From Kaistia hirudinis (GTDB taxonomy: Bacteria; Pseudomonadota; Alphaproteobacteria; Rhizobiales; Kaistiaceae): 64,000 nt of DNA. Made by a program: the position numbers and the translations under genes. Where the stretch lies: the NCBI RefSeq assembly GCF_014196455.1, contig NZ_JACIDS010000005.1:310001-374000 (forward strand), read 5' to 3'. Numbering within the stretch: position 1 is the stretch's first letter; each line of letters starts with the position of its first letter. The notes beneath the pieces were generated by a model. The model searched no databases, was not told where the DNA came from, and was given only the letters and a program-made list of their open reading frames with translations. This document shows positions 19,002 through 34,983 of the stretch, piece by piece.

Positions 19002-19697
19002 ATGGCAGACGATCAAGACATGGATCAGCAGAGCGATGAATATCTGACCAAAGGAAAGTCCCGGCCGGCCAATCATCGCGATCCGGAAGGAACGTCCCGG
19101 TCCATCCTCAATGCTGCGACTCGCGAATTCGCCGAACACGGCCTCTCCGGCGCCCGCATCGATCGCATCGCCGCGCTGGCCGGCATCAACAAGCGGATGC
19201 TGTATCACTATTACGGCGACAAGAACGCCCTCTACCTCGCCGTTCTCGAAGCCGCCTATGCCCGTATCCGCGCCGCGGAAGCGGAACTCGCACTCGACGC
19301 GCTGGAGCCGGAGGCGAGCCTGCTGCGCCTCGCCCGGTTCACCTTCGATTATTACCTGGCCAACCCCGAGTTTCTCAGCCTGCTCGCCACCGAGAATCTG
19401 CACCGCGCGGAGCATATCTCGGCCTCCGAAAGGCTGCGCAGCATGCACGCGCTCTTCCTCGGCGATCTCGGGCGCGTTCTGGAACGCGGCGCCGAGACGG
19501 GCGTCTTCCGCCCCGGGCTCGACGCGCTCGACATCTATATGACGATCGCGGCGCTTGGCGCCTTCTATCTCTCCAACCGCTTCACCCTCTCCGCGATCTT
19601 CGGCCGCGCTTTGTCGGATCCGGAACGCGTCGCCGCCTGGCGCGATCACATCGGCGATGTCGTGCTCGCCTATGCCCGGGCGGAAGGCCGCGCCTGA
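19002..19697 (+). CDS. TetR-family transcriptional regulator
   Basis: A 231-residue repressor-type protein. The helix-turn-helix lies at residues about 30-75 (RSILNAATREFAEHGLSG, then INKRMLYHYYGDKNALY), and the C-terminal all-helical domain should bind a small ligand. A perfect 20-bp palindrome just downstream (19714-19759), ahead of the DUF993 gene, is a strong candidate operator. It shares a strand with that gene 95 bases downstream and is divergent from the glycosyltransferase gene. The inducer cannot be guessed. Confidence 0.88.
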   Translation: MADDQDMDQQSDEYLTKGKSRPANHRDPEGTSRSILNAATREFAEHGLSGARIDRIAALAGINKRMLYHYYGDKNALYLAVLEAAYARIRAAEAELALDALEPEASLLRLARFTFDYYLANPEFLSLLATENLHRAEHISASERLRSMHALFLGDLGRVLERGAETGVFRPGLDALDIYMTIAALGAFYLSNRFTLSAIFGRALSDPERVAAWRDHIGDVVLAYARAEGRA

Positions 19698-19713
19698 CGC
19701 CATTGCTTGACGC

Positions 19714-19759
19714 GCGCATCGCCATCTTGTAACCAATCAGTTACAAGATGGCGATGCGC
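19714..19759. promoter_or_regulatory. Perfect 20-bp palindrome, candidate TetR operator
   Basis: The arms 19714-19733 and 19740-19759 are exact reverse complements around a 6-base centre (CAATCA); the core reads TTGTAAC-N6-GTTACAA. It sits between the TetR stop codon and the DUF993 gene, with the DUF993 start only 34 bases further. No T-run follows, which argues against an intrinsic terminator. Confidence 0.65.
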
Positions 19760-19792
19760 CAGGCCGGCGATCGTCGCGCCGCGGAGAAAATC

Positions 19793-20953
19793 ATGGCCAC
19801 GATCGTCCTGCCCGTTATCGGAGGCACCGCCCCCTACACGCCGACCGGCGTCCCGCTGCCGCGTACGGCGACCGCGCCGGCGTTCAACCGCGTCGCCTAT
19901 GCCGCGGCGCATGTCGTGGTCGATCCCTTCGCGGACAATGATCCCTCGCTCGACGTCGCCTTCGACTGGGAGCGTACCCTCGCCTTTCGTCATCATCTCT
20001 GGGATCTCGGTTTCGGCGTCGCCGAGGCGATGGATACGGCGCAGCGCGGCATGGGCCTCTCCTGGGAGAACGCGCTCGAGCTTTCCAAGCGCGCCATCGC
20101 CGAGGCGCGGACCCGGCCCGGCGCCGTCATCGCGTGCGGCGCTGGCACCGACCAGTTGGAGCCCTCGCCCGACGTCACGATCGACGATGTCATCGCCGCC
20201 TATGAGACGCAGGTCGAGGCGATCGAGGCCGCGGGTGGACGCATCATCCTGATGGCGAGCCGGGCGCTCGCCCGCGCGGCGCGCTCGCCCGACGATTATC
20301 TCCGCGTCTACGGGCGCATCCTCGAAGGCGTGCGCGAGCCGGTCGTGCTGCACTGGCTCGGCGAGATGTTCGACCCGGCGCTCGCCGGCTATTGGGGCAC
20401 GGACGACCATTACGCGGCGATGGACACCGTGCTGGAACTGATCCGCCGGCACGCCGCCAAGGTCGACGGCATCAAGATCTCGCTCCTGTCCGCGGACAAG
20501 GAGATCGCGCTGCGCCGTCGCCTGCCGGATGGCGTGAAGATGTATACGGGTGATGATTTCAACTATGCGGAACTGATCGCCGGCGACGCCGAGGGCCATT
20601 CCCACGCGCTGCTCGGCATTTTCGACGCGATCGCGCCGGTGGCCTCGCAGGCGCTCGCCCATCTTGCGTCCGGTGAGACGGAGACATTCCGCGCGCTGCT
20701 CGATCCGACCGTTCCCCTGTCGCGGCACATCTTCAAGGCGCCGACCCGCTTTTATAAGACCGGCGTCGTCTTCCTCGCCTGGCTCAATGGCCACCAGGAT
20801 CACTTCCTGATGGCGGGCGGCCAGCAGAGCGCGCGCTCGATCCAACATTTCGCGGAGCTCTTCCGCCTCGCCGACCAGGCGCGCTGCCTCGCCGACCCAG
20901 ACCGCGCAATCGAACGCATGCGCCGCCTGCTGGCGGTCGCGGGGATCGTTTAG
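19793..20953 (+). CDS. DUF993 family protein (predicted TIM barrel)
   Basis: A 386-residue protein matching the DUF993 family, annotated in some genomes as related to dihydrodipicolinate synthase/N-acetylneuraminate lyase barrels. Visible landmarks are VVDPFADNDPSLDVAFDWE near the N terminus (given in part), CGAGTDQL, LHWLGEMFDP, DGIKISLL with a likely Schiff-base Lys, and FLAWLNGHQDHF near the C terminus. The reaction is unknown. The ATG at 19793 has GCGGAG eight bases upstream; an earlier frame from 19748 reads from inside the palindrome. Likely controlled by the TetR protein encoded just before it. Confidence 0.82.
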   Translation: MATIVLPVIGGTAPYTPTGVPLPRTATAPAFNRVAYAAAHVVVDPFADNDPSLDVAFDWERTLAFRHHLWDLGFGVAEAMDTAQRGMGLSWENALELSKRAIAEARTRPGAVIACGAGTDQLEPSPDVTIDDVIAAYETQVEAIEAAGGRIILMASRALARAARSPDDYLRVYGRILEGVREPVVLHWLGEMFDPALAGYWGTDDHYAAMDTVLELIRRHAAKVDGIKISLLSADKEIALRRRLPDGVKMYTGDDFNYAELIAGDAEGHSHALLGIFDAIAPVASQALAHLASGETETFRALLDPTVPLSRHIFKAPTRFYKTGVVFLAWLNGHQDHFLMAGGQQSARSIQHFAELFRLADQARCLADPDRAIERMRRLLAVAGIV

Positions 20954-21167: not shown

Positions 21168-22049
21168 CTACCGCGCCCAGATGTTCATCTGCAGCAGATA
21201 GTCGCGCGTCGAGCGGTCGAGCGGATAGGGCATGACGCCGTCGCGGCCGAACCATTTGTCGTGGATGGCCATATAGGGTCCGTCATAATCGTCGAGGCCG
21301 GCCATGAGATCGACGATCGTCTTGTCGACGAGGTCGCGCCAGGCGCTGTCGTTCTGCGGCAGGATGCAAGCCATCGCCTCGTTGCCATAGGGGCGCGAGC
21401 GCGGCAGCAGCACGACCGAGCGGTTCGGCTCCAGCTTGCGCGACAGGCCGAGCAGGATGACGCCGATATTGGCGACGCCCTGCACCTCGCCCTTGCCGAG
21501 CGCGGCGAAGGCCGCGTCCATGTCGGGAAAGCTTTTCGTCTTGATGCCGGGCAGCGCGTCTTCGAGGATGCTCTGCGTCGTCGTGCCCTCGGCAACGCCG
21601 ATTAGCATGTCCTTGGGGTCGGGATGGGTGCGCAGCGTCTCGCGAAAGGCGAGGATGCGCGTGCCGTCGCGGAAGAAGGGGATCGAGAAGTCGACGGTCT
21701 TCTCCCGCGCCCAGGTCGGCGTGGTGATCTCGCAGACGACGTCGAGTTCGCCGGAGGCGATGCGCTCCAGCCGGTCCTTGGTGGTCACCGTCTGCAGCTT
21801 GAGCTCGACCGGCCGGCCGAGCCGCGCGGCCGTGGCGGCCCTGACCTGCTCGAGCAGATCGACCGAAAAGCCGGCCGGCGTCCCGTCAGGGCCGGTGAAG
21901 GCGAAGGGAACGGCGTCAGCGCGCGTGCCGGCCGTGAGCACGCCGCTCTCCGCGACGCGGTCGAGCACGCCGGCCCCGGCTGCGCCCGGCAGAAGCAGCG
22001 CCGCAACGACCATCGACGCCCGGACGAGCCGACCCACCGTGATGACCAT
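21168..22049 (-). CDS. Periplasmic amino-acid-type substrate-binding protein
   Basis: A 293-residue SBP_bac_3 protein. Residues 1-26 form a signal peptide (basic start, hydrophobic core ending GAAGA). The mature part has the family pattern: FAFTGPDGTPAGFSVDL, DRLERIASGELDVVCEITT and VDFSIPFF. It should bind a polar amino acid or similar ligand in the periplasm. The ATG at 22049 has GGAGG five bases upstream. It is divergent from the binding-protein/permease fusion gene, from which it is separated by a 127-base promoter region; no ABC ATPase gene is nearby. Confidence 0.87.
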   Translation of the reverse strand: MVITVGRLVRASMVVAALLLPGAAGAGVLDRVAESGVLTAGTRADAVPFAFTGPDGTPAGFSVDLLEQVRAATAARLGRPVELKLQTVTTKDRLERIASGELDVVCEITTPTWAREKTVDFSIPFFRDGTRILAFRETLRTHPDPKDMLIGVAEGTTTQSILEDALPGIKTKSFPDMDAAFAALGKGEVQGVANIGVILLGLSRKLEPNRSVVLLPRSRPYGNEAMACILPQNDSAWRDLVDKTIVDLMAGLDDYDGPYMAIHDKWFGRDGVMPYPLDRSTRDYLLQMNIWAR

Positions 22050-22176
22050 GTGACCTCCGCGCGAAACGATCCGTCCTGTTGCCGTTTCGGCAGGACTCGG
22101 GCGATACAATGGTGCGATCCGCCGCCCGCTGTCCACGGCCAATCACTCGGCCGGGCGCCCGTCCGAGGTTCCGTCC

Positions 22177-23769
22177 TTGCCGCCCTCTGTCATCGCCGCG
22201 CACCGGCCGAAGGCCGAACGGCTCGCCGCGCTGCTCTGCGCGATGGCGGCGCTCTATTTCGCGCTGACGGCCTTCGCGCAGGCCGACCGGCTCGACGAGA
22301 TCCGCGCGCGCGGCGAGTTGATCGCCGGTGTCAAGACGGACTACGAGCCCTTCGGCTTCCGCGATGCCAGCGGCGAGATCGTCGGCTTCGATGTCGATGT
22401 CGCGGGGGGCCTGGCCGAGGCGCTCGGCGTGCGCCTGCGGCTCGTGCCCGTGACCAGCGCCAACCGATTGCAGAAGCTCGCGGCCGGCGATGTCGACGTG
22501 CTGGTCGCGACGCTCGGCGACACGCTCGACCGCCGCCGCCTCGTGCGCATGGTGGAGCCCGGCTATTATGGCGGCGGCGCCTCGATCCTCGTGCCCGAGG
22601 CGAGCCCGATCCAGGGCTGGCAGGATGTGCGCGGCCGAACGCTCTGCGGCGTGCAGGGCGCGCTGTGGAACCGCCTCGCGGCTTCCCGGCTCCTCGCCGA
22701 GGTGCACGCCTTCGGCAATCTGCGCGACGCCGCGCTCGGCCTGCATGAGGGCAGCTGCGAGGGCTTGCTCTATGACGAGACGGCGCTGAAACACGCGGCG
22801 CTCAATCCGGAATGGAACGGCTATCGCCTGTTGCCGCCGGATTTCGTCTCTCCCTGGGCGATCGCCGTCGCATCGGACGGGCGGCTCGCGGCCTTCGCCG
22901 AGGACCAGGTCGCGGCCTGGCTGCGCGACGGCCGCCTCACGTCGCTCGAAGCCAAGTGGAAACTGCCGCCGTCGGAATATCTGCGCGAGGCGAGCGCGCG
23001 CTGGTCGGCGCGTGACGCGCAGGGCCAGTACGTCTGCGCGCGGCAGGCCGATGGCGCCTGGCCAACGCAGTGCCGCGAGCTGAAGCTGATCGAATCGCGC
23101 CAGCTCGTCGGTCTCGCGGGCCTGGCGCTGTCGCTGCGCGACAGCCTTGGCCTCGATCTGACGCCGTTCTACGATCCGCTCGACCGTGCTTCCCTCGTCA
23201 ACGGCCTGCTGACCACCATAGCGCTGGCGCTTTCGGTGCTCGTCGGCAGCCTCGTCGTCGGCATTGCCGGTGCCGCCGCGCTCCGGGCCGGCATCCCGAT
23301 CCTGACGCCGCTGGTGCGCCTCGTCGTGACGCTCGCCCGCATGACGCCGCCGCTGCTGCAGCTCTATCTCGTCTTCTTCGGCCTCGGCGCGCTCATCGCG
23401 GCGCACGGCATCTCGCTCGGCGCCTTCTGGACCTCTGTCGCCGTGCTCTCGCTCTATGCCGGCGCCGCCAATGCGGCGGCGATCGCGGAGGCGGCGGCGA
23501 CGCTCGCGCCCGGCCTGCCGCACCGGACCCGCCGCATCGCCGCCCTCGCCCACCCGGCCGTCATGGGCAGCTGCATCAATGTCGTGAAGGCGACGGCGAT
23601 GGCGAGTGCGATCGCCGTGCCGGAACTCGTGCATGTCAGCACGGCCATCGCCGCCGACTACGGCAATGTCGCGGTGATGATGAACCTGATGCTCGCCTGC
23701 TATGTCCTGATCGTCCTGGCCGTGGCGCATGCCTTCACGCTGTTCGAGCGACGGGTTCTGCGCCGATGA
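22177..23769 (+). CDS. Substrate-binding domain fused to an ABC permease domain
   Basis: A 530-residue fusion. A signal anchor (residues about 15-36) precedes a second SBP_bac_3 domain (40-265; GVKTDYEPFGFRDASGEIVGF-like start, LQKLAAGDVDVLVATLGD). After a linker with two Cys residues (270-320) comes a membrane domain (about 340-525) of the HisM/GlnP amino-acid permease type, with an EAA-like loop around HPAVMGSCINVVKATAMAS. Binding-domain/permease fusions are known for GlnP-like importers. TTG at 22177 is the likely start, with GAGG eight bases upstream. It overlaps the next gene by 4 bases (ATGA). Confidence 0.85.
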   Translation: MPPSVIAAHRPKAERLAALLCAMAALYFALTAFAQADRLDEIRARGELIAGVKTDYEPFGFRDASGEIVGFDVDVAGGLAEALGVRLRLVPVTSANRLQKLAAGDVDVLVATLGDTLDRRRLVRMVEPGYYGGGASILVPEASPIQGWQDVRGRTLCGVQGALWNRLAASRLLAEVHAFGNLRDAALGLHEGSCEGLLYDETALKHAALNPEWNGYRLLPPDFVSPWAIAVASDGRLAAFAEDQVAAWLRDGRLTSLEAKWKLPPSEYLREASARWSARDAQGQYVCARQADGAWPTQCRELKLIESRQLVGLAGLALSLRDSLGLDLTPFYDPLDRASLVNGLLTTIALALSVLVGSLVVGIAGAAALRAGIPILTPLVRLVVTLARMTPPLLQLYLVFFGLGALIAAHGISLGAFWTSVAVLSLYAGAANAAAIAEAAATLAPGLPHRTRRIAALAHPAVMGSCINVVKATAMASAIAVPELVHVSTAIAADYGNVAVMMNLMLACYVLIVLAVAHAFTLFERRVLRR

Positions 23770-24914
23770 CCCGCGACACCTTCGCCGCCCTCCTCGCCTG
23801 GACGCCCTTCCTCGCCGGCGGCTTCCTGTGGAACATCGTGATCTCGCTTGCGACGATGGCGATCGGAACGCCCGCCGGCTACCTGCTCGCCCGTGGCAGG
23901 CTGAACGGATCGCGGGTCGCGGGTTTCCTCACCGCGGCCGCCCGCGTGCCGCCGACCTTCGTGCTGATCTATTATCTCGCCTATCTGCTGCCGCCCGAGA
24001 TCGTGCTCGGGCCGCTCGCCCTGCCCCTCCCCGGCTGGGTCAAGGCCTCGCTGGCGCTCGCCGTCGCGGTCACGGGCTTCGTCTCCGACAATGCGCTGCA
24101 GGCGCTGAGACATCTGAAGCGCGGCGAGCGGGTCGAGGCGCTCTATTTCGTGCCGGCGTGGACGACCTATTTCCTCATCATCGTGATGGCTTCGTCGACC
24201 GCCTCGGTGATCGGCGTGCCGGAGATCGTTCAGCGGGCGAACACCGTCATCGCAGCGATCGGCGACAGCGGCGCGATCCTCGCCGTCTACCTCTACGTCA
24301 TGGCCTTCTTCCTCGTCTTCTGCTGGCCATTGGCGCGCTTGCTCGGCTATGCGAGAGTCCGTCTCGGCCGGCGGGCGGGCAGCGAGGTGGGCGTGCGCGT
24401 ATCGCCGGAGAGCCCGGCCGGGACCGAGGCCGTCCTGGCGACATCGTCGCGCGGAGATGCTGGCGTGGATCCTGACGCGACCCCTGACGACAGCTTCGAG
24501 CTACCCGTGGCACCGGCCTCGGTCGCCGCGATCCAGAGCCGCGTCGAGACGGTCTGCGGCGAGCGGCTCGATCCGGCCGCGCTGTTCCGCCTGTCGCTCG
24601 CCGTCGAGGAACTGGTGACGAACGTCGTCAAATATGGCCATGCCGGCGGCGAACCGATCCGCGTCGCGGTGCGCCATGACGACAGCCGCGTCACCGTCGA
24701 CCTCGCCTATGGCGGTCCGCAATTCGATCCGTTCCGCGATGCGCCGAAGCCCGATCTCACGGCCGATATCGACGAGCGCCATATTGGCGGGCTCGGCATC
24801 CACCTCGTCGCCAACATGATCGACGAGGCCGTGTATCACCACAGTGGCGGGACCAACGCGATCCGCCTCGTCATGTTGCGACCGGGTGCCCACGCCGGAG
24901 CGACAGCCTCGTGA
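23766..24914 (+). CDS. ABC permease domain fused to an RsbW-like HATPase domain
   Basis: A 382-residue fusion. Residues 1-200 are an amino-acid-type ABC permease with about five helices (VPPTFVLIYYLAYLL; loop around LKRGERVEALYFVPAW). After a flexible, acidic linker (205-245) comes a serine-kinase-type HATPase domain (250-375) of the anti-sigma regulatory family: N box LAVEELVTNVVKYG (Glu281, Asn286), G1 box VDLAYGGP (Asp312), and G2 box HIGGLGIHLV (340-349). It is followed with a 4-base overlap by an RsbU-like phosphatase gene, so the HATPase most likely phosphorylates a STAS protein such as the one at 26849. Permease-kinase fusions of this sort are unusual. Confidence 0.85.
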   Translation: MTRDTFAALLAWTPFLAGGFLWNIVISLATMAIGTPAGYLLARGRLNGSRVAGFLTAAARVPPTFVLIYYLAYLLPPEIVLGPLALPLPGWVKASLALAVAVTGFVSDNALQALRHLKRGERVEALYFVPAWTTYFLIIVMASSTASVIGVPEIVQRANTVIAAIGDSGAILAVYLYVMAFFLVFCWPLARLLGYARVRLGRRAGSEVGVRVSPESPAGTEAVLATSSRGDAGVDPDATPDDSFELPVAPASVAAIQSRVETVCGERLDPAALFRLSLAVEELVTNVVKYGHAGGEPIRVAVRHDDSRVTVDLAYGGPQFDPFRDAPKPDLTADIDERHIGGLGIHLVANMIDEAVYHHSGGTNAIRLVMLRPGAHAGATAS

Positions 24915-26830
24915 CGCTCTCCCGCCGCCTCGTCCTGACCACCGCCATCGCCATCGCGCTCGCGATCCTGGTGACGAGCATCGTCTTCGGCCTGCTCGGC
25001 CGCCGCGCGCTCGTTGAGCAGGCGGAGGGACAGGCCGCCGTGGTGGCGCGGATCATCGCGGAGAGCGCGCGCCTCACCGAAGTGTCGCTGGAAGAGACCG
25101 AGGCCGTGGTCGGCGATATCCTGACCTCGCTCGCCCTGACGGCCGATCACATCGAGGGCCGTACGGCGGCGGATCTCAGCGACCGCCTGGCCGAGATCGT
25201 GGCGCGCGGCGGGCTCGATTCGATCTGGCTGATCGACGACCAGCTCAACGTGGTCGCAAGCTCCATCGGCGGCTACAGCGCGGTGCTGCGCGGCGAGGAG
25301 GTGCCGGTCCATCTCTCCCGTCAGGCGCTGCTCGATCTTGCCAGCGGCGAGCGCTACAGCGCCGATTTCGGCCCCTCCACCGACGGCGTGCACTATGTCG
25401 GCGTCCGCGCGCCGGGCAATCGCGCGATCATCGTCGGGCAGCCGGTCGCCGCGCTCGACGCGGTCCGCGAGGCGAACAGCGTCCCCGTGCTGATGCGCGA
25501 ATTGCTCGACCGCGACAACATCATCTCGATCCGCGTCGTCGACGATACGCAGAAGCTGCTCGCCTCGGCCGGGCCGCAGGCCGAGCCCGCCTCCTATGCC
25601 GATCTCATCAGCGGCGCGATCGCGACCAATGCGCCGAGTTCCGCCATCCGGCTCGGGCATTTCTGGGTCGCGGCGCCGATCCATGACATTGCGGGGATCG
25701 TGATCGGCGCGGCGGTGATCGAGATGTCGAACCACCGCCTCAACCATCTGCTGTGGAACCTGCTGCTCTACGGGACCGCCGCGTGCCTGATCGTCATCGC
25801 GATCGGCGTCACCATCGCGACCTTCTCGGCGCGCCGGATCGCCCGACCGGTCGAGGCCATGACCCAGGCGGCACAACAGATCGACGCCCGCACCTTCGCG
25901 CCTGAGAGCCTCGACGGCCTCGCGGCGCAGAGCGACGAGCTCGGCACGCTGGCGCGCGTGTTCCGTCACATGGCGATCGAGGTCCAGCGCCGCGAGGAGC
26001 ATCTCGAACAGCTCGTGCGCGCCCGTACGAAGGAACTCGAGCAGAAGAACCAGCTCCTCGAGGAAGCCGCGCGCCGCGTCGAGGCGGAACTGATGGCCGC
26101 CCGTTCGCTGCAGGCCGCCATGCTGCCGCAGACGCTGCCGGCCGATCCCGCCTTCACGGGCACGGCGGCCATGCTTCCGGCGCGCGAGATGGGCGGCGAT
26201 TTCTACGATTTCTTCGCGCTCGACGACCGCCGGCTCGGCATCGTCATCGCCGACGTGTCGGGCAAGGGCGTCTCGGCGGCGTTCTTCATGGCGATCTCGC
26301 GCACGGTGCTGCACGCCCAGGCGCGCGAACAGGCCTCGCCCGGCATCTGCCTCGCGCGCTCCAACGATGCGCTCTGTGCGCAGAACCCGATGGAGCTGTT
26401 CGTCACGGCCTTCTACGGCATTCTCGATGCCGCGACGGGGCAGCTGACCTATGCCAATGGCGGCCACAACCCGCCGCTCGCGGTGCGGCGGAGCGACGGC
26501 GTCGTCGAGGAGGTGCCGCGCACCGGCGGCCTCGCGCTCGGCGTGATGCCGGAGGTCGCCTATACCGAGCGGACGCTGCAATTGCAGCCGGGCGACACGC
26601 TGTTCCTCTATACGGACGGCATTTCGGAGGCGATGGACGGCGGCGGACGCGAGTTCACCGAGGCGCGGCTCAAATCCGTCCTGAGCGGCACCGACATGCA
26701 GTCGGTCGATCTCGTGCTCGCGAGCGTGACGGATGCGGTGAGCGATTTCGTCGGCGATGCGCCGCAATCGGACGACATCACCTGCCTGGTGATCCGCTAT
26801 CTCGGCCAGCCGGAAACCGCGGCCGCCTGA
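24911..26830 (+). CDS. Membrane sensor PP2C-type phosphatase (Cache-HAMP-SpoIIE, RsbU-like)
   Basis: A 639-residue inner-membrane signalling phosphatase. One helix at about 8-28, a periplasmic Cache-like sensor at 35-270, a second helix at about 278-302, a HAMP domain (305-355), a coiled coil (355-400) and a C-terminal PP2C/SpoIIE domain (400-630). The catalytic metal-binding Asp residues are in GGDFYDFF, DVSGKG, YTDGISEA and SDDITCLV. Such phosphatases dephosphorylate STAS-domain antagonists in partner switching. GTG start overlaps the previous stop (GTGA), so it is co-translated with the permease-HATPase protein. Confidence 0.9.
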   Translation: MTLSRRLVLTTAIAIALAILVTSIVFGLLGRRALVEQAEGQAAVVARIIAESARLTEVSLEETEAVVGDILTSLALTADHIEGRTAADLSDRLAEIVARGGLDSIWLIDDQLNVVASSIGGYSAVLRGEEVPVHLSRQALLDLASGERYSADFGPSTDGVHYVGVRAPGNRAIIVGQPVAALDAVREANSVPVLMRELLDRDNIISIRVVDDTQKLLASAGPQAEPASYADLISGAIATNAPSSAIRLGHFWVAAPIHDIAGIVIGAAVIEMSNHRLNHLLWNLLLYGTAACLIVIAIGVTIATFSARRIARPVEAMTQAAQQIDARTFAPESLDGLAAQSDELGTLARVFRHMAIEVQRREEHLEQLVRARTKELEQKNQLLEEAARRVEAELMAARSLQAAMLPQTLPADPAFTGTAAMLPAREMGGDFYDFFALDDRRLGIVIADVSGKGVSAAFFMAISRTVLHAQAREQASPGICLARSNDALCAQNPMELFVTAFYGILDAATGQLTYANGGHNPPLAVRRSDGVVEEVPRTGGLALGVMPEVAYTERTLQLQPGDTLFLYTDGISEAMDGGGREFTEARLKSVLSGTDMQSVDLVLASVTDAVSDFVGDAPQSDDITCLVIRYLGQPETAAA

Positions 26831-26848
26831 GGCGAGAGCCGCTTCGGC

Positions 26849-27184
26849 TCAGCGCAGCTTCGTCAGCGCTTCGGCCCGCTTCGCCACCACGTCGAGAATG
26901 CCGAGGAAGCCGCTGATCTCGAACACGTCACGAATGTTCGGCTGCAGCCCGCACAGCACCAGCGGCCGGCCGGCCTGCTTCATCCGCTTGGCGACCACCA
27001 GCACGACCCGCAGCCCCGCGCTCGAGATATAGTCGAGCCGAACGAGATCCAGCACCACCGGACCGGTCGTCGCCGTCACGCGCTCCAGAAGCGCGCCCTC
27101 GACTTCCGCAGCATTGGCGCTATCGAGCCGACCGAGCAGGTCCACGACGAGAACAGGACCCGTCGTCTCGAAAGTGATGCTCAT
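26849..27184 (-). CDS. STAS-domain anti-sigma-factor antagonist (RsbV/SpoIIAA-like)
   Basis: A 111-residue single STAS domain. The segment VVLDLVRLDYISSAGLRVV matches the phosphorylation loop of SpoIIAA; Ser55 aligns with the phosphorylated Ser58. It should be the shared substrate of the HATPase kinase (23766) and the PP2C phosphatase (24911). It converges on the phosphatase gene with an 18-base gap and is divergent from the NCS2 permease gene. No sigma factor gene is adjacent, so its downstream target is unknown. Confidence 0.9.
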   Translation of the reverse strand: MSITFETTGPVLVVDLLGRLDSANAAEVEGALLERVTATTGPVVLDLVRLDYISSAGLRVVLVVAKRMKQAGRPLVLCGLQPNIRDVFEISGFLGILDVVAKRAEALTKLR

Positions 27185-27380
27185 TCAGTTCGACTCCCGA
27201 AACCATGCCGCCCGCAAAAAGGGTGACTTGCGGCCTGACGCACATAAAAAGCATTTGCAGCACTTTATCCAGCGGGCGATGCTCGCGCACGGCCTATCTG
27301 GCGCTGGGGACGAGAATGCATCGATCGGGGGAAGCCAGCAATCACGGCCGCGGGGTGGCGGCTGCCGGGGCGATTGGCCG

Positions 27381-29144
27381 ATGATCAGCCTCCGCCTTCC
27401 GCCGTCCCGGCCACGCCGGCGTCCGCAGGAGCTCTCCTACGCGGCCGACGAGCGCCCGCCCTTCGCCACCATGATGACGCTGGGCATCCAGCACGCCATC
27501 ATGGCGCTGGCGCTGTCGGCCTATGCGCTGGCGCTCGCAAAGGGCGCCCATCTCGACATCGGACAGACGCGGGCGCTGCTCGCCGTCACGATCATCGCCA
27601 TGGCGATCGGAACGTTCCTGCAGGCCTGGGGCGGACGGTTCGGCTCGGGCTCGCTGATGATCCACATGCCGACGCCCTTCATCCTGCCGCTCGCCGTGCC
27701 GGTGCTGGAGCAGGTCGGCCCGGGCGGGCTGGTCCCGATCACCATCGTTTCGGCCATCACCACGCTGCTGGTGGCGCCGCTGGCGCAGAAGCTGCGCGGG
27801 CTGTTTCCGCCAATCGTCGCGGGCCTCGTCGTGCTCATCGGCGGGTTGTCGCTGATCCGCGAGGCGTTCGAACACTCCATGGGCCTTTCCGAGGACATGG
27901 AGATCAACCGGAACAGCGTGATCATCGCCGGCGTCACGCTGGTTCTGATCATGGGCCTTTCGGTCTGGGGCACGCGCAAGATGCGCCTGTTCGCCCTCCT
28001 CGCCGGCATCGTCGGCGGCGTGATCGCCGCCGCGCTGCTTGGCGAGCTCTCCGGCGGGGCCGAACTTCTGGCAACACCGACCTTTGCCGTTCCGACGCTG
28101 GTGGCGCCGAGTTTCGACGTGCCGATCGGCGCCCTGATCGGCCTCGCCTTCGTCGCCCTGCTGGTGCAGATCGATTCGATCGGCTCCTTCATCCTGATCG
28201 ACAAGATGGACGACGCCGACTGGCGCCGGGCCGACATGCGCCAGGCGAGCCGCGGCGTGCTCGGCGCCGGCATCTGCGATTTCATCGGCGGCCTGCTCGG
28301 CGCCATGCCGACCGCGACGTCCTCCGCCAATATCGGCCTGACCCATGCCAGCGGCTCGACGACGCGCTATGCCGGCCTCGCCGCGGCGGCCGTGCTGCTG
28401 CTGGTCGCCTTCCTGCCGAAGGCGACGCTGATCCTGACGCTGATCCCGACCCCGGTGATCGGCGCGATCGAGCTCTATGCCGCCGCCTTCCTGATCGCCT
28501 CGGGCGTCGACCTGCTCGCCTCGCGCGAAATGGACCCGCGCGGCATCTTCATCGTCGGCATCTCGACGGTCGGCGGCGTCGGCACGCTGCTGATGCCGGG
28601 CCTCGCCGAGCATGCCTCGCCGGGGCTGCGCCATCTCGTCGGCTCCGGCTTCATCGTCACCGGCGTGCTGGCGATCCTGCTCAACCTGCTCTTCCGCCTC
28701 GGCATCAAGAAATCGGAGAGCATCCAGCTCGACCGCAATGCGGACAGCCAGCCGCTGTCGATCCAGATCACGGACTTCGTCGAGGCCATGGGCGGCGCCT
28801 GGGCCGCGCGGCGTGACGTGGTCCGCCGGGCCGCGCTCGCCGCCGTCGAGGCGTCCGAGGCGATCGAAGCCTCCGGCGACGGCCGCAAGGTGATCGGCAT
28901 CGGCGGCTCGTTCGACGAGCTCAACTTCAACATCGACCTCGTGCATCTCGGACCGCCGCTGCCGGTGGCCGGCGCCGGTCCGACCGACCTCGCCGCGATC
29001 CTGGAGGGCGACGACGACAGCGCGATCGACGCGGCGATCCAGTCGGTCTCGGGCACGCTCGTGACCCGCCTGGCCGATCGGATCAAGGGCGAGAAGGGCC
29101 CGACGCCGGGAACGTCGGTCCTGCATCTGCATTTCGACCACTGA
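27381..29144 (+). CDS. NCS2-family (uracil/xanthine-type) permease with a HATPase-like C-terminal domain
   Basis: A 587-residue inner-membrane protein. Residues about 30-450 form a nucleobase/ascorbate (NCS2) transporter with 12-14 helices; the NCS2 signature appears as SSANIGLTHASGSTTRYAG and the TM8 region as LVQIDSIGSF. Residues 457-587 do not belong to NCS2: they read like a degenerate HATPase of the anti-sigma type, with AALAAVEASEAI in place of the N box (Glu490 kept, Asn lost) and IDLVHLGPP in place of the G1 box, the same D-L-x3-G-P as in the permease-HATPase protein. The ATG at 27381 has only a weak GGGGCG site, so the start is less certain. Substrate unknown. Confidence 0.8.
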   Translation: MISLRLPPSRPRRRPQELSYAADERPPFATMMTLGIQHAIMALALSAYALALAKGAHLDIGQTRALLAVTIIAMAIGTFLQAWGGRFGSGSLMIHMPTPFILPLAVPVLEQVGPGGLVPITIVSAITTLLVAPLAQKLRGLFPPIVAGLVVLIGGLSLIREAFEHSMGLSEDMEINRNSVIIAGVTLVLIMGLSVWGTRKMRLFALLAGIVGGVIAAALLGELSGGAELLATPTFAVPTLVAPSFDVPIGALIGLAFVALLVQIDSIGSFILIDKMDDADWRRADMRQASRGVLGAGICDFIGGLLGAMPTATSSANIGLTHASGSTTRYAGLAAAAVLLLVAFLPKATLILTLIPTPVIGAIELYAAAFLIASGVDLLASREMDPRGIFIVGISTVGGVGTLLMPGLAEHASPGLRHLVGSGFIVTGVLAILLNLLFRLGIKKSESIQLDRNADSQPLSIQITDFVEAMGGAWAARRDVVRRAALAAVEASEAIEASGDGRKVIGIGGSFDELNFNIDLVHLGPPLPVAGAGPTDLAAILEGDDDSAIDAAIQSVSGTLVTRLADRIKGEKGPTPGTSVLHLHFDH

Positions 29145-29173: not shown

Positions 29174-30010
29174 ATGAAAGCTCCCAGCTTGTCCTCCCCG
29201 CGCCCCAATGAGCGCCGGCCGACGCCGCCGGCACTCCCCGACATGATCGAGAGCTACGACGCCTATTTCCGCTCGGGGCTCTATCATGCGCGCTATCCGC
29301 GGCCGAACCGCCGCACGCTCCGCTTCGTGCGCCGCCATCTCGGCCAGGGCGGCCGCCTGCTCGATTTCGGCGCCGGCGAAGGCCGCTATGCGCTCGACCT
29401 CGCCGCGCGCGACGGCGCGCGCGTGCTCGCCGTCGATGTCAGCCCCGTCGCGCGCGATCTGCTCGCGGCCGAAGCGGCGCGCCGCGGCCTCGCCGACCAT
29501 CTGACCGTCACCGACACGCACGATGCGGCCTATCGCGATAACGCCCTCGGCTCGCGCGCCTTCGATGTCGCGCTGCTCGGCTTCGGCGTGCTCGGCCATA
29601 TCGCTGGCCGGTCCGAGCGCATCGCGGTGCTCCGCGCCATGCGCTCCAGCCTCAAGCCCGGCGGCCGGCTGATCATGGGCCTGCCCAATGCGGCCCGGCG
29701 CTTCCGGGCGGCGCAGGCCGAGGCCGCCCCGCTGGTCGCCGCCGGCACGCTGGAGGCGGGCGACATTCTCTATTCGCGCGGCTCCGAGGCCGGCGCGATC
29801 GCGCTCTACTACCACCTCTTCCGCCGCGACGAGATCCTGGCCGACCTCGCCGAGGCCGGCTTCGTCGTCGACCGGCTGACCAATGAGAGCACGCTGCCGG
29901 AGCGGGCCGTGACGACCTCGCGCGTCCTCGCGCTCCTCGACGACGCCGTCTCCGCCATCCTGCCGACGCGTTGGGGCTATGGCTATCTGGTCGTCGCGCG
30001 GCCGGCCTGA
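29174..30010 (+). CDS. Class I SAM-dependent methyltransferase
   Basis: A 278-residue Rossmann-fold methyltransferase. Motif I is LLDFGAGEGRYALDLA (residues about 62-77), the acidic end of beta-2 is LAVDVSP, and the post-motif region FDVALLGFGVLGHI follows. The acceptor is unknown. It begins 29 bases after the NCS2 gene on the same strand and could be co-transcribed with it, but nothing in the sequence ties it to signalling. Confidence 0.87.
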   Translation: MKAPSLSSPRPNERRPTPPALPDMIESYDAYFRSGLYHARYPRPNRRTLRFVRRHLGQGGRLLDFGAGEGRYALDLAARDGARVLAVDVSPVARDLLAAEAARRGLADHLTVTDTHDAAYRDNALGSRAFDVALLGFGVLGHIAGRSERIAVLRAMRSSLKPGGRLIMGLPNAARRFRAAQAEAAPLVAAGTLEAGDILYSRGSEAGAIALYYHLFRRDEILADLAEAGFVVDRLTNESTLPERAVTTSRVLALLDDAVSAILPTRWGYGYLVVARPA

Positions 30011-30012
30011 CG

Positions 30013-31023
30013 CTATTCGGCGGCCGGCGCGGTGATCACGACGTTCCGCCCCACGGCCTTGGCGGCATAGAGCGCACGGTCGGCAGAGGCGAACAGCCGA
30101 TCGGGCGTTTCAGCCGACTGTGTCGAGGCGACGCCGAGGCTCGCGGTCAGCTTGCCCCTCGGGCCGGCCGGATGCGCGATGCCCTCCGCCTCCAGGCGGG
30201 TGCGGATCCATTCAGCCCGTTCCGCGGCGGCCGGAAGGTCGGTCCCGCCGAGGATGAGAGCGAACTCCTCGCCGCCGACCCGGGCCACGACATCGTCGGG
30301 CCGCCGCGCGATGTCCCGCAGCGCCGAGGCGACCCGGACAAGGGCCGCGTCGCCGGCAGGATGGCCCGATGCGTCGTTCAGCTGCTTGAAATGGTCGATA
30401 TCGAGCAGAATGAGTGAGGCCGGCTCCCCCGTGCGCTTCGCCCGCCGACACGCCCGCTCGATCTCCTCGTCGAACAGGCGGCGATTGCCGAGACCCGTCA
30501 GCTTGTCGGAATGGGAGAGCAGCTGGAGCTCCGAATTGCGGCGGCGGAATTCGATCAGATCGAGTGACAGCGCGGCGAGATCCCGCAGCACGGCGGTCGT
30601 GAAGCCCTCAGGCTTTCCGGGTGTCCGGCTGAGGATACAGAGCGTCCCGATCGTCCAGCGACCATCCAGAATCAGCGGCACGCCGGCATAGAATCGCCAG
30701 GGTGAGCCGTGCACGGCATGTCCCGCGAGAAGCGGCGACGTACGAATGTCGTCGATCACGAGTTCCCGGCCGCTGGCGATGATCAACGTGCAGATCGAAT
30801 CGTTGCGACCGGAAATCTCGGGGACATCCGTGCTGGTGCGCGACTTCATCCATTGCATGGAGCCGTCCACCAGGCCGAGGAACGCCACGTCCGCGCCATA
30901 GAACAACCGGGTGAGCTGCGTCACACGGTCGAAACTGGGATCGGGTAGCGAATCGAGCAGACCGCAACTTTCCAGAACTTCGACCCGCTCGCGCTCGGCG
31001 GGCGGAGAGGGGGACTGCCACAC
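30013..31023 (-). CDS. GAF-GGDEF diguanylate cyclase
   Basis: A 336-residue cytoplasmic enzyme expected to make cyclic-di-GMP. An N-terminal GAF domain (about 10-155; LVDGSMQWMKSR, CTLIIASGRELVI) is followed by a GGDEF domain (about 175-330). The active site is GGEEF (250-254), and an inhibitory I-site RPDD (241-244) lies exactly five residues upstream, so product inhibition is likely. No EAL domain or membrane helix. The start is uncertain: GTG at 31023 has CGGAG seven bases upstream, while a TTG at 31092 would add 23 residues. Converges on the methyltransferase gene with a 2-base gap. Confidence 0.88.
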   Translation of the reverse strand: MWQSPSPPAERERVEVLESCGLLDSLPDPSFDRVTQLTRLFYGADVAFLGLVDGSMQWMKSRTSTDVPEISGRNDSICTLIIASGRELVIDDIRTSPLLAGHAVHGSPWRFYAGVPLILDGRWTIGTLCILSRTPGKPEGFTTAVLRDLAALSLDLIEFRRRNSELQLLSHSDKLTGLGNRRLFDEEIERACRRAKRTGEPASLILLDIDHFKQLNDASGHPAGDAALVRVASALRDIARRPDDVVARVGGEEFALILGGTDLPAAAERAEWIRTRLEAEGIAHPAGPRGKLTASLGVASTQSAETPDRLFASADRALYAAKAVGRNVVITAPAAE

Positions 31024-31330
31024 TACACGGCTCCGGATGGCGAAAATCTCCGATTTCACTTGCACATAGCCACGTTCCGGCGCCGCAATCAATCAGGCTT
31101 CCGATCATCTTCTTGTTGTTCCTTCGCGCGGCGGCGGAAGACACCGTCCGCGCGCGCCGCAGGTGCAACCTCCTGGTTGCGTCGGCTTCGCGCCGCAGCC
31201 CCGTGCGACGAAGTGGGACGGTTGCGGCAGACACGATCTCGGCGTCATTCTCCGCCAGAGGACACCCTCCGTGCCGACGAGACGGCCAGGAAGCGAAGCG
31301 GATCGTAGAGTGAGCGACGTGGTCGAGGGC

Positions 31331-33100
31331 ATGAGGCGGCGTGAGGGCAATGGGGGGCGTGCCGCCCTGTGGGCGCGGCTGCTCGAGCCCTATCGCAAGC
31401 TGATCCTCTTACTGATCCTCTGCCAGGCCGGGCAGTCCATCGCGTCGCTCGCGCTGCCCAGCCTCAGCGCCAATGTCATCGACCGCGGCATTCTCGACGG
31501 CGACCACGCCTATATCTTCCGCACGATGGCGATCATGCTGGCCGCAGCGGTCGCCCAGATCCTGTTCGCGACCGGGACGGCCTGGCTCGGGGCGCGGATC
31601 GCGATCGGCTTCGGCCGCGACCTCCGCGCCGCCGTCTTCGCCCGCGTGCAGAGCTTCTCCCTGACCGAACTGCGCATCTTCGGCACGCCGTCGCTGATCA
31701 CGCGCACCACCAACGACGTCCAGCAATTGCAGACCGTGCTGGTGATGTTCCTGACCATGGTCATGACCGCTCCGATCATGGGAATCGGCGCGGTGATCAT
31801 GGCGATCCGTCAGGACAGCCACCTCTCGCTGCTGCTGCTCGTCAGCGTGCCGGTGCTCGGGCTGATCATCGGCGTGCTGATGGTCAAGAGCCTGCCGCTC
31901 TTCTCCGCCATGCAGGGCCAGATCGACCGCGTGAACCAGATCCTGCGCGAGCAGATCACCGGGCTGCGGGTCATCCGCGCCTTCGTGCGCGACACGCATG
32001 AGCGCGATCGCTTCGCGGTCGCCAATGACGCGCTGACCGACACGGCGCTCAGGGTCGGCCGCCTGATGGCGCTGAACATGCCGGCGGCGATGATCGTGAT
32101 GCAGCTTTCCAGCATCGCGATGGTCTGGTTCGCGGCGCACCGGATCGCCTCCGGCGCGATGCAGGTCGGCTCCCTCGTCGCCTTCATCGCCTATATCGCG
32201 CAGGTGCTGATCTCCGTGATGATCGCCTCGATGCTGTTCGCCATCGCGCCGCGCGCGCTGGTCAGCGGACGGCGCATCCGCGAGGTGCTGCAGACCGAGA
32301 CCTCCGTCGTCGAGCCGGCGGCGCCGGCAAAGCTCGGCGCGGCCGCGATGACGCGGTGCGCGGTCGAATTCCGCGACGTGACGTTCTCCTATCCCGGCGC
32401 CGAGGCCGCGGTGCTGAGCCATGTCAGCTTCCGCATCGATCCCGGCGAGACCGTCGCGGTGATCGGCTCGACCGGTTCCGGCAAGAGCACGCTGGTCAAC
32501 CTGGTTCCGCGCCTCTTCGACGTCACCGGCGGCAGCGTGTGCCTCGACGGGATCGACGTGCGCGCGCTGCCGCTCCAGACGCTCTGGAGCCTGATCGGCC
32601 TCGTGCCGCAGGAGAGTTACCTCTTTTCCGGCACGATCGCCGACAATCTGCGCTATGGCCGCGCCGATGCCGACGAGGCGGCGCTGTGGCACGCGCTGGA
32701 AATCGCGCAGGCGAAGGATTTCGTCGAATCGCTGCCGCTCGGCCTCGATGCGCCCGTGGCGCAGGGCGGCGGCAATTTCTCGGGCGGGCAGCGCCAACGC
32801 CTCACCATCGCGCGCGCCCTCGTTCGCCGCGCGCCGATCTATCTGTTCGACGACAGCTTCTCGGCGCTCGATTATGTGACGGACATGCGGCTCCGCCAGG
32901 CGCTCGCCCGCGAGATGGGTGACGACGCGGCCATGCTGATCGTGGGCCAGCGCGTCTCCTCCGTGCGCCATGCCGACCGCATCCTCGTGCTCGACCGCGG
33001 CGTGATCGTCGGGGCGGGACGGCACGAGCAATTGCTCGCCGAGTGCGCGGCCTATCGGGAAATCGTCGAATCCCAGCACGCCGAGGAGCTCGCGCCATGA
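31331..33100 (+). CDS. ABC exporter half-transporter with degenerate ATP site
   Basis: A 589-residue type IV exporter half: six helices (about 15-310) and an ATP-binding domain (345-585). Walker A is GSTGSGKST (about 379-387) and the signature FSGGQ is intact, but the catalytic Glu after Walker B is Asp (LFDDS, residue 508) and the switch His is Gln (IVGQRVSS, about 540). This matches the non-catalytic partner of heterodimeric exporters such as TM287 or BmrC. The start is uncertain; GTG at 31310 is also possible. It overlaps the next gene by 4 bases. Probable lipid, peptide or drug export. Confidence 0.88.
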   Translation: MRRREGNGGRAALWARLLEPYRKLILLLILCQAGQSIASLALPSLSANVIDRGILDGDHAYIFRTMAIMLAAAVAQILFATGTAWLGARIAIGFGRDLRAAVFARVQSFSLTELRIFGTPSLITRTTNDVQQLQTVLVMFLTMVMTAPIMGIGAVIMAIRQDSHLSLLLLVSVPVLGLIIGVLMVKSLPLFSAMQGQIDRVNQILREQITGLRVIRAFVRDTHERDRFAVANDALTDTALRVGRLMALNMPAAMIVMQLSSIAMVWFAAHRIASGAMQVGSLVAFIAYIAQVLISVMIASMLFAIAPRALVSGRRIREVLQTETSVVEPAAPAKLGAAAMTRCAVEFRDVTFSYPGAEAAVLSHVSFRIDPGETVAVIGSTGSGKSTLVNLVPRLFDVTGGSVCLDGIDVRALPLQTLWSLIGLVPQESYLFSGTIADNLRYGRADADEAALWHALEIAQAKDFVESLPLGLDAPVAQGGGNFSGGQRQRLTIARALVRRAPIYLFDDSFSALDYVTDMRLRQALAREMGDDAAMLIVGQRVSSVRHADRILVLDRGVIVGAGRHEQLLAECAAYREIVESQHAEELAP

Positions 33101-34983
33101 AGGCGCCGGGACAACCGACCGAGCGGGCGCCGGATCTCGCCACCGCACCGACGCGTGCCCCGATGCCCACGCCGGGAGCCCGCATGGGGCCGGGCGGTGC
33201 CGCGCAGATCGGGGCCGGCGCCAAGCCCCGGAATTTCGCGTCCTCGATCCGGCGCCTTGCGCGGATCATGCTCGCCGAGCGCACCAAGCTCGCGATCATC
33301 CTGGCCTGCACGCTGGTCAGCGTGGGCTTCGGCATCCTCGGTCCGTGGCTGCTCGGCCATGCGACCGATCTCGTCGTCAGCGCCGTCTCGGCGTCGAACG
33401 CGATCGACTTCGGCTCACTCGCGCGTCTGCTCGGCCTCGCCATCGCGCTCCAGCTCGTGGCGGCGGTCGCCAACTGGCAACAGGCCTGGCTCACCAATGG
33501 CGTCGTGCAGGGCACCAGCCGGGCGCTGCGCCGGCAGGCGGAGGAAAAACTCGCCCGCCTGCCCCTCGCCTGGTTCGACCGCCAGCCGCATGGCGAGGTG
33601 CTGAGCCGCATCACCAACGACATCGACAATATCAGCCAGAGCCTGCAGCAGCTGCTGAGCCAGTTGCTGATGTCGCTGCTGCAGGTGATCGGCGTCATCA
33701 CCATGATGCTCGTGCTCTCGCCGCTCCTGACGCTCGCGGCCCTCACCAGCCTCGCCATCTCGCTGCTGGTCACGCGGCTTCTGGCGCGCTGGTCGCAGCC
33801 GCGCTTCGTCGAGCAATGGCGCTGGACCGGCGTGCTCAACGGCAATGTTGAGGAGAACTTCACCGGTCATGCTCTGGTGAAGGTGTTCGGGCATCAGGAG
33901 ACGGCGCGCGCCGAATTCGAGAAGGCCAACACGGCGCTGCGCGACAATGCCTTCGTCGCGCAGTTCCTCGCCGGCGTGATCCAGCCGGCGATCATGTTCA
34001 TCGGCAATCTCAGCTTCATCGCCGTCGTCATCGGCGGCGCGCTGCGCGTCGCGGCCGGCGGGCTGACCATCGGCACGCTGCAGGCCTTCATCCAATATGT
34101 GCGCCAGCTCAACCAGCCCGTCTCGCAGGTTTCCAGCATGGCCGCGATCCTGCAATCGGCGGCGGCTTCAGCGGAGCGCGTCTTCGAACTGCTGGACGCG
34201 CCGGAACTCGCACCCGATCCGGCGGAGCCCGCGCGGATCGCGGCGCCGCAGGGCCATGTCGTCTTCGATCACGTGCGCTTCCGCTATGACCCCCCCGTTC
34301 CGCTGTTCGAGAATGTCGACCTCGAAGCCCTGCCCGGCCAGACAGTGGCGATCGTGGGACCGACCGGCGCCGGCAAGACGACGCTCGTCAACCTGCTGAT
34401 GCGCTTCTACGAGATCGACGGCGGCTCGATCACGCTCGACGGCGTCGACACCCGCGCCATGAGCCGGGAGGCGCTCCGGCGCAATTTCGGCATGGTGCTG
34501 CAGGACGCCTGGCTCTTCAGCGGCACGATCCGCGACAACATCGCCTATGGCCGCGAGAACGCCACCGAGGCGGAGATCGTCGAAGCGGCGCGCGCCTGCC
34601 ATGTCGACGAATTCGTGCGCACCCTGCCCAAGGCCTATGACACCCCGATCGACGAGAACGGCTCCAGCCTCAGCGTCGGCCAGCGCCAGCTCCTGACGAT
34701 CGCCCGCGCCTTCCTCGCCCGCCCGGTCGTGCTGATCCTCGACGAGGCGACCAGCTCGGTCGATACGCGCACCGAGCTTCTCGTCCAGCGCGCGATGGCG
34801 CGCCTCAGAAGCGGACGCACCAGCTTCGTCATCGCCCATCGCCTCTCGACCATCCGCGACGCCGACCTGATCGTCTACATGGAAAACGGCAATGTGCTCG
34901 AACAGGGCACGCACGACACGCTCGTCGCCCGCCGCGGCCATTACTGGCGCCTGCACCAGTCACAATTCGCCGAGGTCGACTGA
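33097..34983 (+). CDS. ABC exporter half-transporter with catalytic ATP site
   Basis: A 628-residue partner of the preceding half-transporter. A Pro/Ala-rich cytoplasmic N terminus (1-45) precedes six helices (about 60-350) and an ATP-binding domain (385-625). Walker A is GPTGAGKTT, the catalytic Glu is present (ILDEATSSVD, residue 550) and so is the switch His (IAHRLST, about 581). Its own signature is LSVGQ rather than LSGGQ, which in the heterodimer would face the degenerate site of the partner. Translation is coupled through ATGA. It converges on the ferredoxin reductase gene, 14 bases away. Confidence 0.9.
   Translation: MKAPGQPTERAPDLATAPTRAPMPTPGARMGPGGAAQIGAGAKPRNFASSIRRLARIMLAERTKLAIILACTLVSVGFGILGPWLLGHATDLVVSAVSASNAIDFGSLARLLGLAIALQLVAAVANWQQAWLTNGVVQGTSRALRRQAEEKLARLPLAWFDRQPHGEVLSRITNDIDNISQSLQQLLSQLLMSLLQVIGVITMMLVLSPLLTLAALTSLAISLLVTRLLARWSQPRFVEQWRWTGVLNGNVEENFTGHALVKVFGHQETARAEFEKANTALRDNAFVAQFLAGVIQPAIMFIGNLSFIAVVIGGALRVAAGGLTIGTLQAFIQYVRQLNQPVSQVSSMAAILQSAAASAERVFELLDAPELAPDPAEPARIAAPQGHVVFDHVRFRYDPPVPLFENVDLEALPGQTVAIVGPTGAGKTTLVNLLMRFYEIDGGSITLDGVDTRAMSREALRRNFGMVLQDAWLFSGTIRDNIAYGRENATEAEIVEAARACHVDEFVRTLPKAYDTPIDENGSSLSVGQRQLLTIARAFLARPVVLILDEATSSVDTRTELLVQRAMARLRSGRTSFVIAHRLSTIRDADLIVYMENGNVLEQGTHDTLVARRGHYWRLHQSQFAEVD

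Follow-up and report, generated by a model that had tools for sequence, protein, structure and literature searches.

A putative amino-acid receptor derived from a motorless ABC importer in a partner-switching gene cluster of Kaistia hirudinis

The window analyzed here, a 64,000-nt stretch of the Kaistia hirudinis genome (part of contig C5; genome size 5.26 Mb), contains a gene module in which two permeases and a substrate-binding protein (SBP) of an ATP-binding cassette (ABC) importer are encoded together with an RsbW-type HATPase, a SpoIIE-type PP2C phosphatase and a STAS protein. Both permeases have lost the EAA coupling helix, and no ABC ATPase is encoded alongside, while the ligand site of the SBP is kept. 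On balance, and judging from sequence comparisons, we lean towards the reading that an importer of polar amino acids has been turned into an amino-acid receptor, which would set the phosphorylation of the STAS protein in the context of nitrogen acquisition.

Gene order and loss of the motor interface

The lone family-3 SBP (positions 21168-22142, minus strand; Pfam SBP_bac_3, E = 2.8e-22) is divergent from the operon. A second SBP of this family, fused to permease A (permA), is encoded on the plus strand (22177-23769; SBP_bac_3, 7.8e-24), and its gene overlaps by four bases (23766-23769) the gene for a 382-aa fusion of permease B (permB) and an HATPase_c_2 domain (23766-24914, plus strand). 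The permB part of the fusion covers 23766-24410, and the RsbW-type HATPase domain 24504-24872 (residues 247-369; HATPase_c_2, 3.7e-20). Another four-base overlap (24911-24914) leads to the gene of a protein composed of a membrane sensor, a HAMP domain and a SpoIIE-type PP2C (24911-26830, plus strand; SpoIIE, 9.6e-52; HAMP, 5.9e-7). It is followed by the STAS gene (26849-27184, minus strand; STAS, 4.9e-19), with Ser55 as the likely phospho-acceptor of the product, and by an NCS2 (xanthine/uracil family) permease gene (27381-29144, plus strand; Xan_ur_permease, 1.4e-42), for which the ATG at 27381 is the most likely start. The NCS2 permease carries a pseudo-HATPase tail (about 28737-29141).

An earlier note, made by a reader of the bare sequence and its open reading frames (ORFs), had described this layout with both overlaps, and the features that it named are all present at its coordinates. 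Its Cache-HAMP-PP2C label holds for the HAMP and PP2C domains; the Cache domain is unconfirmed, as Pfam gives no match to it in the sensor region at E up to 1. Moreover, the note had missed a conserved member of the module, the class I S-adenosylmethionine (SAM) methyltransferase (29174-30010, plus strand; Methyltransf_12, 3.8e-15). The NCBIfam HEQRo amino-acid permease domain matches permA above the cut-off (1.3e-11) and permB below it (1.1e-4). Scans of the DNA for promoters, terminators and Rfam families yielded nothing useful.

Both permeases descend from a polar-amino-acid ABC importer. In the nine distant relatives examined first (L045-L052 and L054), all of them importer operons, permB is immediately followed by an ABC ATPase gene; the ninth is cut by the contig end. 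In alignments, permB of the module lacks exactly the 20-residue stretch that carries the EAA coupling helix: the segment from N109 to W132 comprises 24 residues in all 25 module-type or divergent EAA-less rows, versus 44 residues in all 37 others (in the window, the site of the deleted segment, residues 115-132, is at 24108-24161, plus strand). For permA, the corresponding segment is 9-18 residues short: all 24 EAA-less rows have 40-49 residues there, and all 37 others have 58. The 25 EAA-less permB rows include L121 (cut by the contig end), L128 and L129, all three outside the set of module loci described below; the permA count has no row for L121, and both counts omit L038-L040 and three loci without permB. 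Among the 37 other rows, two repeat loci already present (L085 = L047, L093 = L046), and three belong to a sister genus. The evidence is the segment length and not the motif, since among the EAA-less permA rows two (the window and L042) were also hit by a loosely defined EAA motif. The helix loss is derived from alignments, because the AlphaFold model of the permB-HATPase fusion, built from 6 rows, is of low quality (mean pLDDT 56.6); the permB part of this poor model matches the amino-acid ABC permease 4yms_D in Foldseek with E = 1.5e-3.

The ATPase gene is missing as well. Within 1500 nt after permB, all 25 EAA-less rows are free of genes for proteins with a Walker-A motif (two of them have less sequence left), whereas 35 of the 37 other permB genes have an ATPase directly downstream, and the remaining two (L122 and L123) have one in a neighboring gene group of the same contig. 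A functional type I amino-acid ABC importer has an EAA helix in each permease and an ATPase encoded alongside; the module has neither. This makes unlikely the suggestion of the earlier note that the transport state could serve as an input, both coupling helices and the ABC ATPase being gone.

While the motor interface is lost, the ligand site is kept. We take the Arg and the Asp of amino-acid sites to bind, respectively, the carboxylate and the amino group of the ligand. Both are present in 31 of 32 rows of the fused SBP, including all 22 module rows, as in type I amino-acid importers, and this combination, as read from the sequences, would mark the complex as a transceptor. In all 24 rows, the lone SBP retains the carboxylate Arg but lacks the Asp for the amino group; its ligand may be other than an alpha-amino acid.

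The likely order of events can be seen in a sister genus of the same class (genomes G537, G637 and G718). There, SBP-permA and permB retain the EAA helices, and the cluster combines an ABC ATPase with HATPase, PP2C, methyltransferase and STAS genes (the ATPase being identified by Pfam in L126 only, with E = 3.8e-37, by motifs in L123 and by similarity in G537). In L126, all genes are consecutive, and the HATPase gene comes next after that of the ABC ATPase. In the permB tree, the EAA-less proteins form a clade with support 100/99, with or without the EAA columns, and the sister genus adjoins it. The separation of the 21 module rows, as a clade, from the two divergent ones has low support (59/75 and 70/68). 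The first tree omits L093, L085, L069, L050 and L121, and the second one also omits L054 and L129. The simplest reading, with the root not proven, is that partner switching was recruited first, and that the helices and the ATPase were lost later, once.

Distribution and composition of the module

The layout is not due to chance, as all of the genes recur, in unchanged order and with 56-85% identity, in five further genomes of the genus; of 14 genus genomes, 6 have the full-length fusion. By permB, the nearest named relative is Kaistia soli. When named genomes were scanned with the profile of permB, 18 loci came up. Nearly all are in records with the label Alphaproteobacteria, namely Kaistia and members of its genus that are labelled differently, Oryzicola, Zavarzinia, Corticibacterium, Aquamicrobium, Defluviicoccus and metagenome-assembled genomes (MAGs) of Rhodospirillales. 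The outliers are one MAG labelled Anaerolineae and one labelled Gammaproteobacteria. The hosts include some soil and wastewater bacteria.

This module type is rare. In the order, permB scoring about 400 bits is found in 7 of 397 genomes, with 21 others having only ordinary relatives (76-93 bits). The sample of the class gives 5 of 385 genomes, one by a partial match, and that of the phylum (398 genomes) the genome of the window and two divergent ones.

We distinguish 22 module loci (the window, L037, L041, L042 and L057-L074). Loci L038-L040 are contigs of L057-L059, L064 and L065 are near-copies, L070 and L072 come from one MAG, and L069 is a 4.5 kb contig. The parts travel together, as the earlier note had supposed: a PP2C following permB or fused to it is found in all 22 loci, the lone SBP in 21 (the remaining locus is a truncated contig), the methyltransferase in 20, an HATPase in 19 and STAS in 18, the single 4.5 kb contig being one locus without both HATPase and STAS. 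Less frequent are the NCS2 permease with a tail (10 of 22), the ammonium transporter Amt (7 of 22) and the type III glutamine synthetase (6 of 22, in one case only its first part at the locus end).

The fusion of permB and HATPase, on which the earlier note had centered, occurs in eight loci, six of the Kaistia group and two of Zavarzinia, and thus is not an artefact of sequencing or assembly. Still, the HATPase is not an obligatory partner of the permease, since it is encoded separately between permB and PP2C in four loci, lies elsewhere in the cluster in seven and was not found in three. Three Defluviicoccus loci have permB fused to PP2C instead, with no stop between them, and the junction is at the first membrane helix of PP2C. 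Hence PP2C is the constant partner, and the HATPase fusion, judged by the criterion that the earlier note had set for its refutation (consistently split homologues), is a lineage-specific state rather than the rule. Since each of the two opposing enzymes has, in one lineage or another, become part of this permease, both probably act at it; the permease C-terminus is presumably cytoplasmic.

Several observations concern individual loci. The modules of L064 and L065 are near-identical, and the MAGs are labelled Anaerolineae and Alphaproteobacteria, respectively, which suggests that the former is misbinned. One Defluviicoccus MAG holds two different copies of the module (L070 and L072). The methyltransferase is also found in the sister genus and beside a permease pair that lacks PP2C (L128). 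A gene of the GPP34 (Golgi phosphoprotein 3) family recurs beside STAS, PP2C and NCS2-tail genes, both in the module (L067, L068, L070, L074, at about 600-1400) and outside it (L149:9682-10359; L155:10206-10895). Positions 19002-20953 of the window contain a regulator-like gene (by eye, of the TetR type) together with one for a DUF993 protein; among 24 loci, these recur only in L037.

Output and alternative readings

The shared theme of the module neighbors appears to be nitrogen acquisition. Modules of the Rhodospirillales type are adjoined by Amt and the type III glutamine synthetase, and that of the window by the NCS2 permease, whose tail the earlier note had called HATPase-like. The label is right as to the predicted fold, which is RsbW-like, and not as to the sequence, which gives no Pfam match and has no nucleotide-binding residues or motifs. 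The model of the tail has good confidence (pLDDT 83.5). Its best Foldseek matches are anti-sigma factors (8ih8_C and 8jzt_B, E from 1.1e-3 to 1.3e-3, probability 1.00), with histidine-kinase ATPase domains among the next ones and none at E of 0.001 or below. Profile comparison with HATPases gives a probability of 48% (E = 1.8e-4), and a sequence search of PDB gave one irrelevant match. It is more likely that the tail is a binding domain than a kinase. Similar degenerate HATPase tails are carried by five NCS2 permeases outside the module (L148:7887-9662; L149:7925-9634; L150:7845-9542; L151:4754-6532; L152:9444-11159). In L149 and L150 a STAS gene adjoins the tailed permease, in L150 being followed by an HATPase_c_2 gene.

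In the mechanism that we propose, an amino acid bound by the tethered SBP would shift the permA/permB heterodimer, and the shift would be passed to the attached PP2C, as well as to the HATPase in loci where it is attached, instead of to an ABC motor. Their response would set the phosphorylation of STAS (at Ser55), and unphosphorylated STAS would switch its partner. The likeliest partner would be a protein of nitrogen acquisition, namely, in the window, the NCS2 purine permease, bound via the pseudo-HATPase tail, and, in the Rhodospirillales-type loci, a protein on the side of Amt and the type III glutamine synthetase. Thus, the system would tune nitrogen uptake to the amino acid sensed outside the cell. 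The stronger claim, that the motor was swapped for a kinase/phosphatase pair and that STAS gates nitrogen uptake directly (through the dead NCS2 tail, and elsewhere on the Amt and glutamine synthetase side) rather than acting on a sigma factor, we make tentatively and consider rather doubtful.

The metal-binding Asp motifs of PP2C are intact in all 26 rows, and the STAS acceptor Ser, preceding an A-G-L motif, is kept in all 17 aligned rows; Ser55 would be the equivalent of S56 of RsbV and S58 of SpoIIAA. The HATPase of the window matches RsbW and SpoIIAB both by Foldseek and by sequence search of PDB.

Several observations weigh against the receptor reading. The G1-box Asp of the HATPase, which in related ATPases contacts adenine, is replaced by Tyr or Phe in all six Kaistia-group rows, the window included, and only there; the Asp of RsbW (6m36) aligns with Tyr315 of the window (24708-24710, plus strand). 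Because of this replacement, kinase activity in the Kaistia group is in doubt, and so, for the window and its five closest relatives, is the direct phosphorylation of STAS by a kinase on the permease that the earlier note had proposed. Neither HATPase nor STAS was found near L064 and L065 (about 36 kb of one contig was read for L065), and STAS is absent within the 18.6 kb of L061. Divergent EAA-less SBP-permease pairs with no ABC ATPase nearby occur in another class (L128:7320-9675; L129:9252-11518), and as no module-like PP2C was found in these genomes at 1e-40, the motor loss is not strictly tied to partner switching. The permeases may use a shared ATPase encoded elsewhere in the genome or transport independently of ATP. 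Finally, the binding of STAS to the NCS2 tail is our guess from the gene neighborhood and the predicted fold.

The alternative that survives best is that the fused HATPase of Kaistia is a pseudo-kinase tether that binds STAS without ATP, PP2C being the sole regulated enzyme, and STAS being phosphorylated by another kinase or never. The replaced G1 Asp speaks for it, as this residue is kept in the other readable rows, including the split HATPases and the Zavarzinia fusions, and so does the fusion of PP2C, not HATPase, to permB in Defluviicoccus. Yet none of the 16 rows departs from the N-box Glu and Asn or from the GGLG box, and the intact PP2C requires a phosphorylated substrate. Moreover, no second RsbW-type kinase stands out in the genome of the window, which has one SpoIIE gene and a single HATPase_c_2 match that is strong (75.5 bits); seven further matches above the cut-off score 27-37 bits, and the ORF with the best of them (37.0) resembles a response regulator at its beginning. 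We see in this alternative a serious possibility, if not a probable one.

The output could also be the classical one, with STAS and the HATPase controlling a sigma factor in the manner of RsbV/RsbW or SpoIIAA/SpoIIAB; the HATPase and STAS are similar to RsbW/SpoIIAB and to antagonists of anti-sigma factors. However, no sigma-factor gene was noticed beside the module (no sigma-factor model was used in searching), and the conserved neighbors are transporters, glutamine synthetase and the methyltransferase, which leaves a sigma-factor output unlikely.

Still less likely, in our view, is that the permeases continue to import, whether by sharing an ABC ATPase, by secondary transport or as a channel, under the regulation of the partner-switching genes. 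The SBP and the membrane parts are indeed conserved, and other ABC genes are found some kilobases off, both in the window (31163-34983) and at several other loci (L041, L057-L059, L064-L066), but the loss of both coupling helices and, in all 25 EAA-less rows, the lack of an ATPase gene behind permB speak against it. We take these distant ABC genes to encode separate transporters. In particular, those of the window were rejected as the missing motor: their products of 645 and 646 aa have the size of exporter fusions, and the first of them matches other module loci only weakly.

A SiaABCD-like output, in which STAS would control the GAF-GGDEF diguanylate cyclase encoded next to the module in the window (30013-31092), is very improbable. 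In its favor are the nearness of the cyclase and the best NCBIfam match of the HAMP-PP2C part, which is SiaA, if far under the cut-off (121.6 of 700 bits); but the cyclase gene was rejected as a part of the module, only L061 of 24 loci having a weak, distant match.

Comparison with known systems

The receptor reading brings together features of several known systems. Polar-amino-acid type I importers (permease 4YMS, SBP 4YMX) have the same SBP and two permeases in the same order; the permB profile matches the 4YMS permease with E = 1.8e-4, and the fused SBP matches 4YMX with 4.4e-21. Unlike them, the module has neither an ABC ATPase nor EAA coupling helices. With RsbW/RsbV/RsbU and SpoIIAB/SpoIIAA/SpoIIE (PMC11418112), it shares an RsbW-type HATPase, STAS and PP2C. 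In contrast to these systems, its kinase or phosphatase has been joined to a membrane complex of importer origin; moreover, no sigma factor was noticed nearby (with no dedicated model search), and in Kaistia the G1 Asp is missing. SiaABCD of Pseudomonas aeruginosa (PMC7647112) likewise combines a membrane PP2C, a kinase and a STAS-like switch protein in a nutrient response, whereas the module has permeases and no conserved diguanylate cyclase.

Transporter and kinase domains linked to amino acids are also combined in CbrA and the SLC5/STAC histidine kinases (PMC13022988, PMC7096432 and PMC9100948). There, an SLC5 symporter that still transports is joined to a histidine kinase, while the module has an ABC-type permease pair with a Ser-kinase and PP2C. 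The prokaryotic parallel in print is provided by the ECF S-component/5TMR receptors (PMC11109136), in which an ABC-type membrane part likewise serves as a receptor, the ATPase-docking motif being lost; a 5TMR-SpoIIE fusion is also noted there. ECF S-components belong to type III importers with another fold and are not SBP-bearing type I importers, whereas the module is a type I permease pair with an SBP in a partner-switching cluster. The open-access literature yielded no type I ABC importer converted to a partner-switching receptor.

If true, the receptor reading would let one trace how a pump became a sensor: an ordinary importer first came to lie among partner-switching genes, then lost the ATPase and the helices jointly, and finally acquired the kinase or phosphatase in their place, as a fusion partner. 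It raises the questions whether an SBP-loaded permease pair can signal without ATP hydrolysis, and whether partner switching can regulate transporters rather than sigma factors. Compared with the systems listed above, each of which shares some of the other parts, the new element would be the exchange of the ABC motor for a partner-switching pair.

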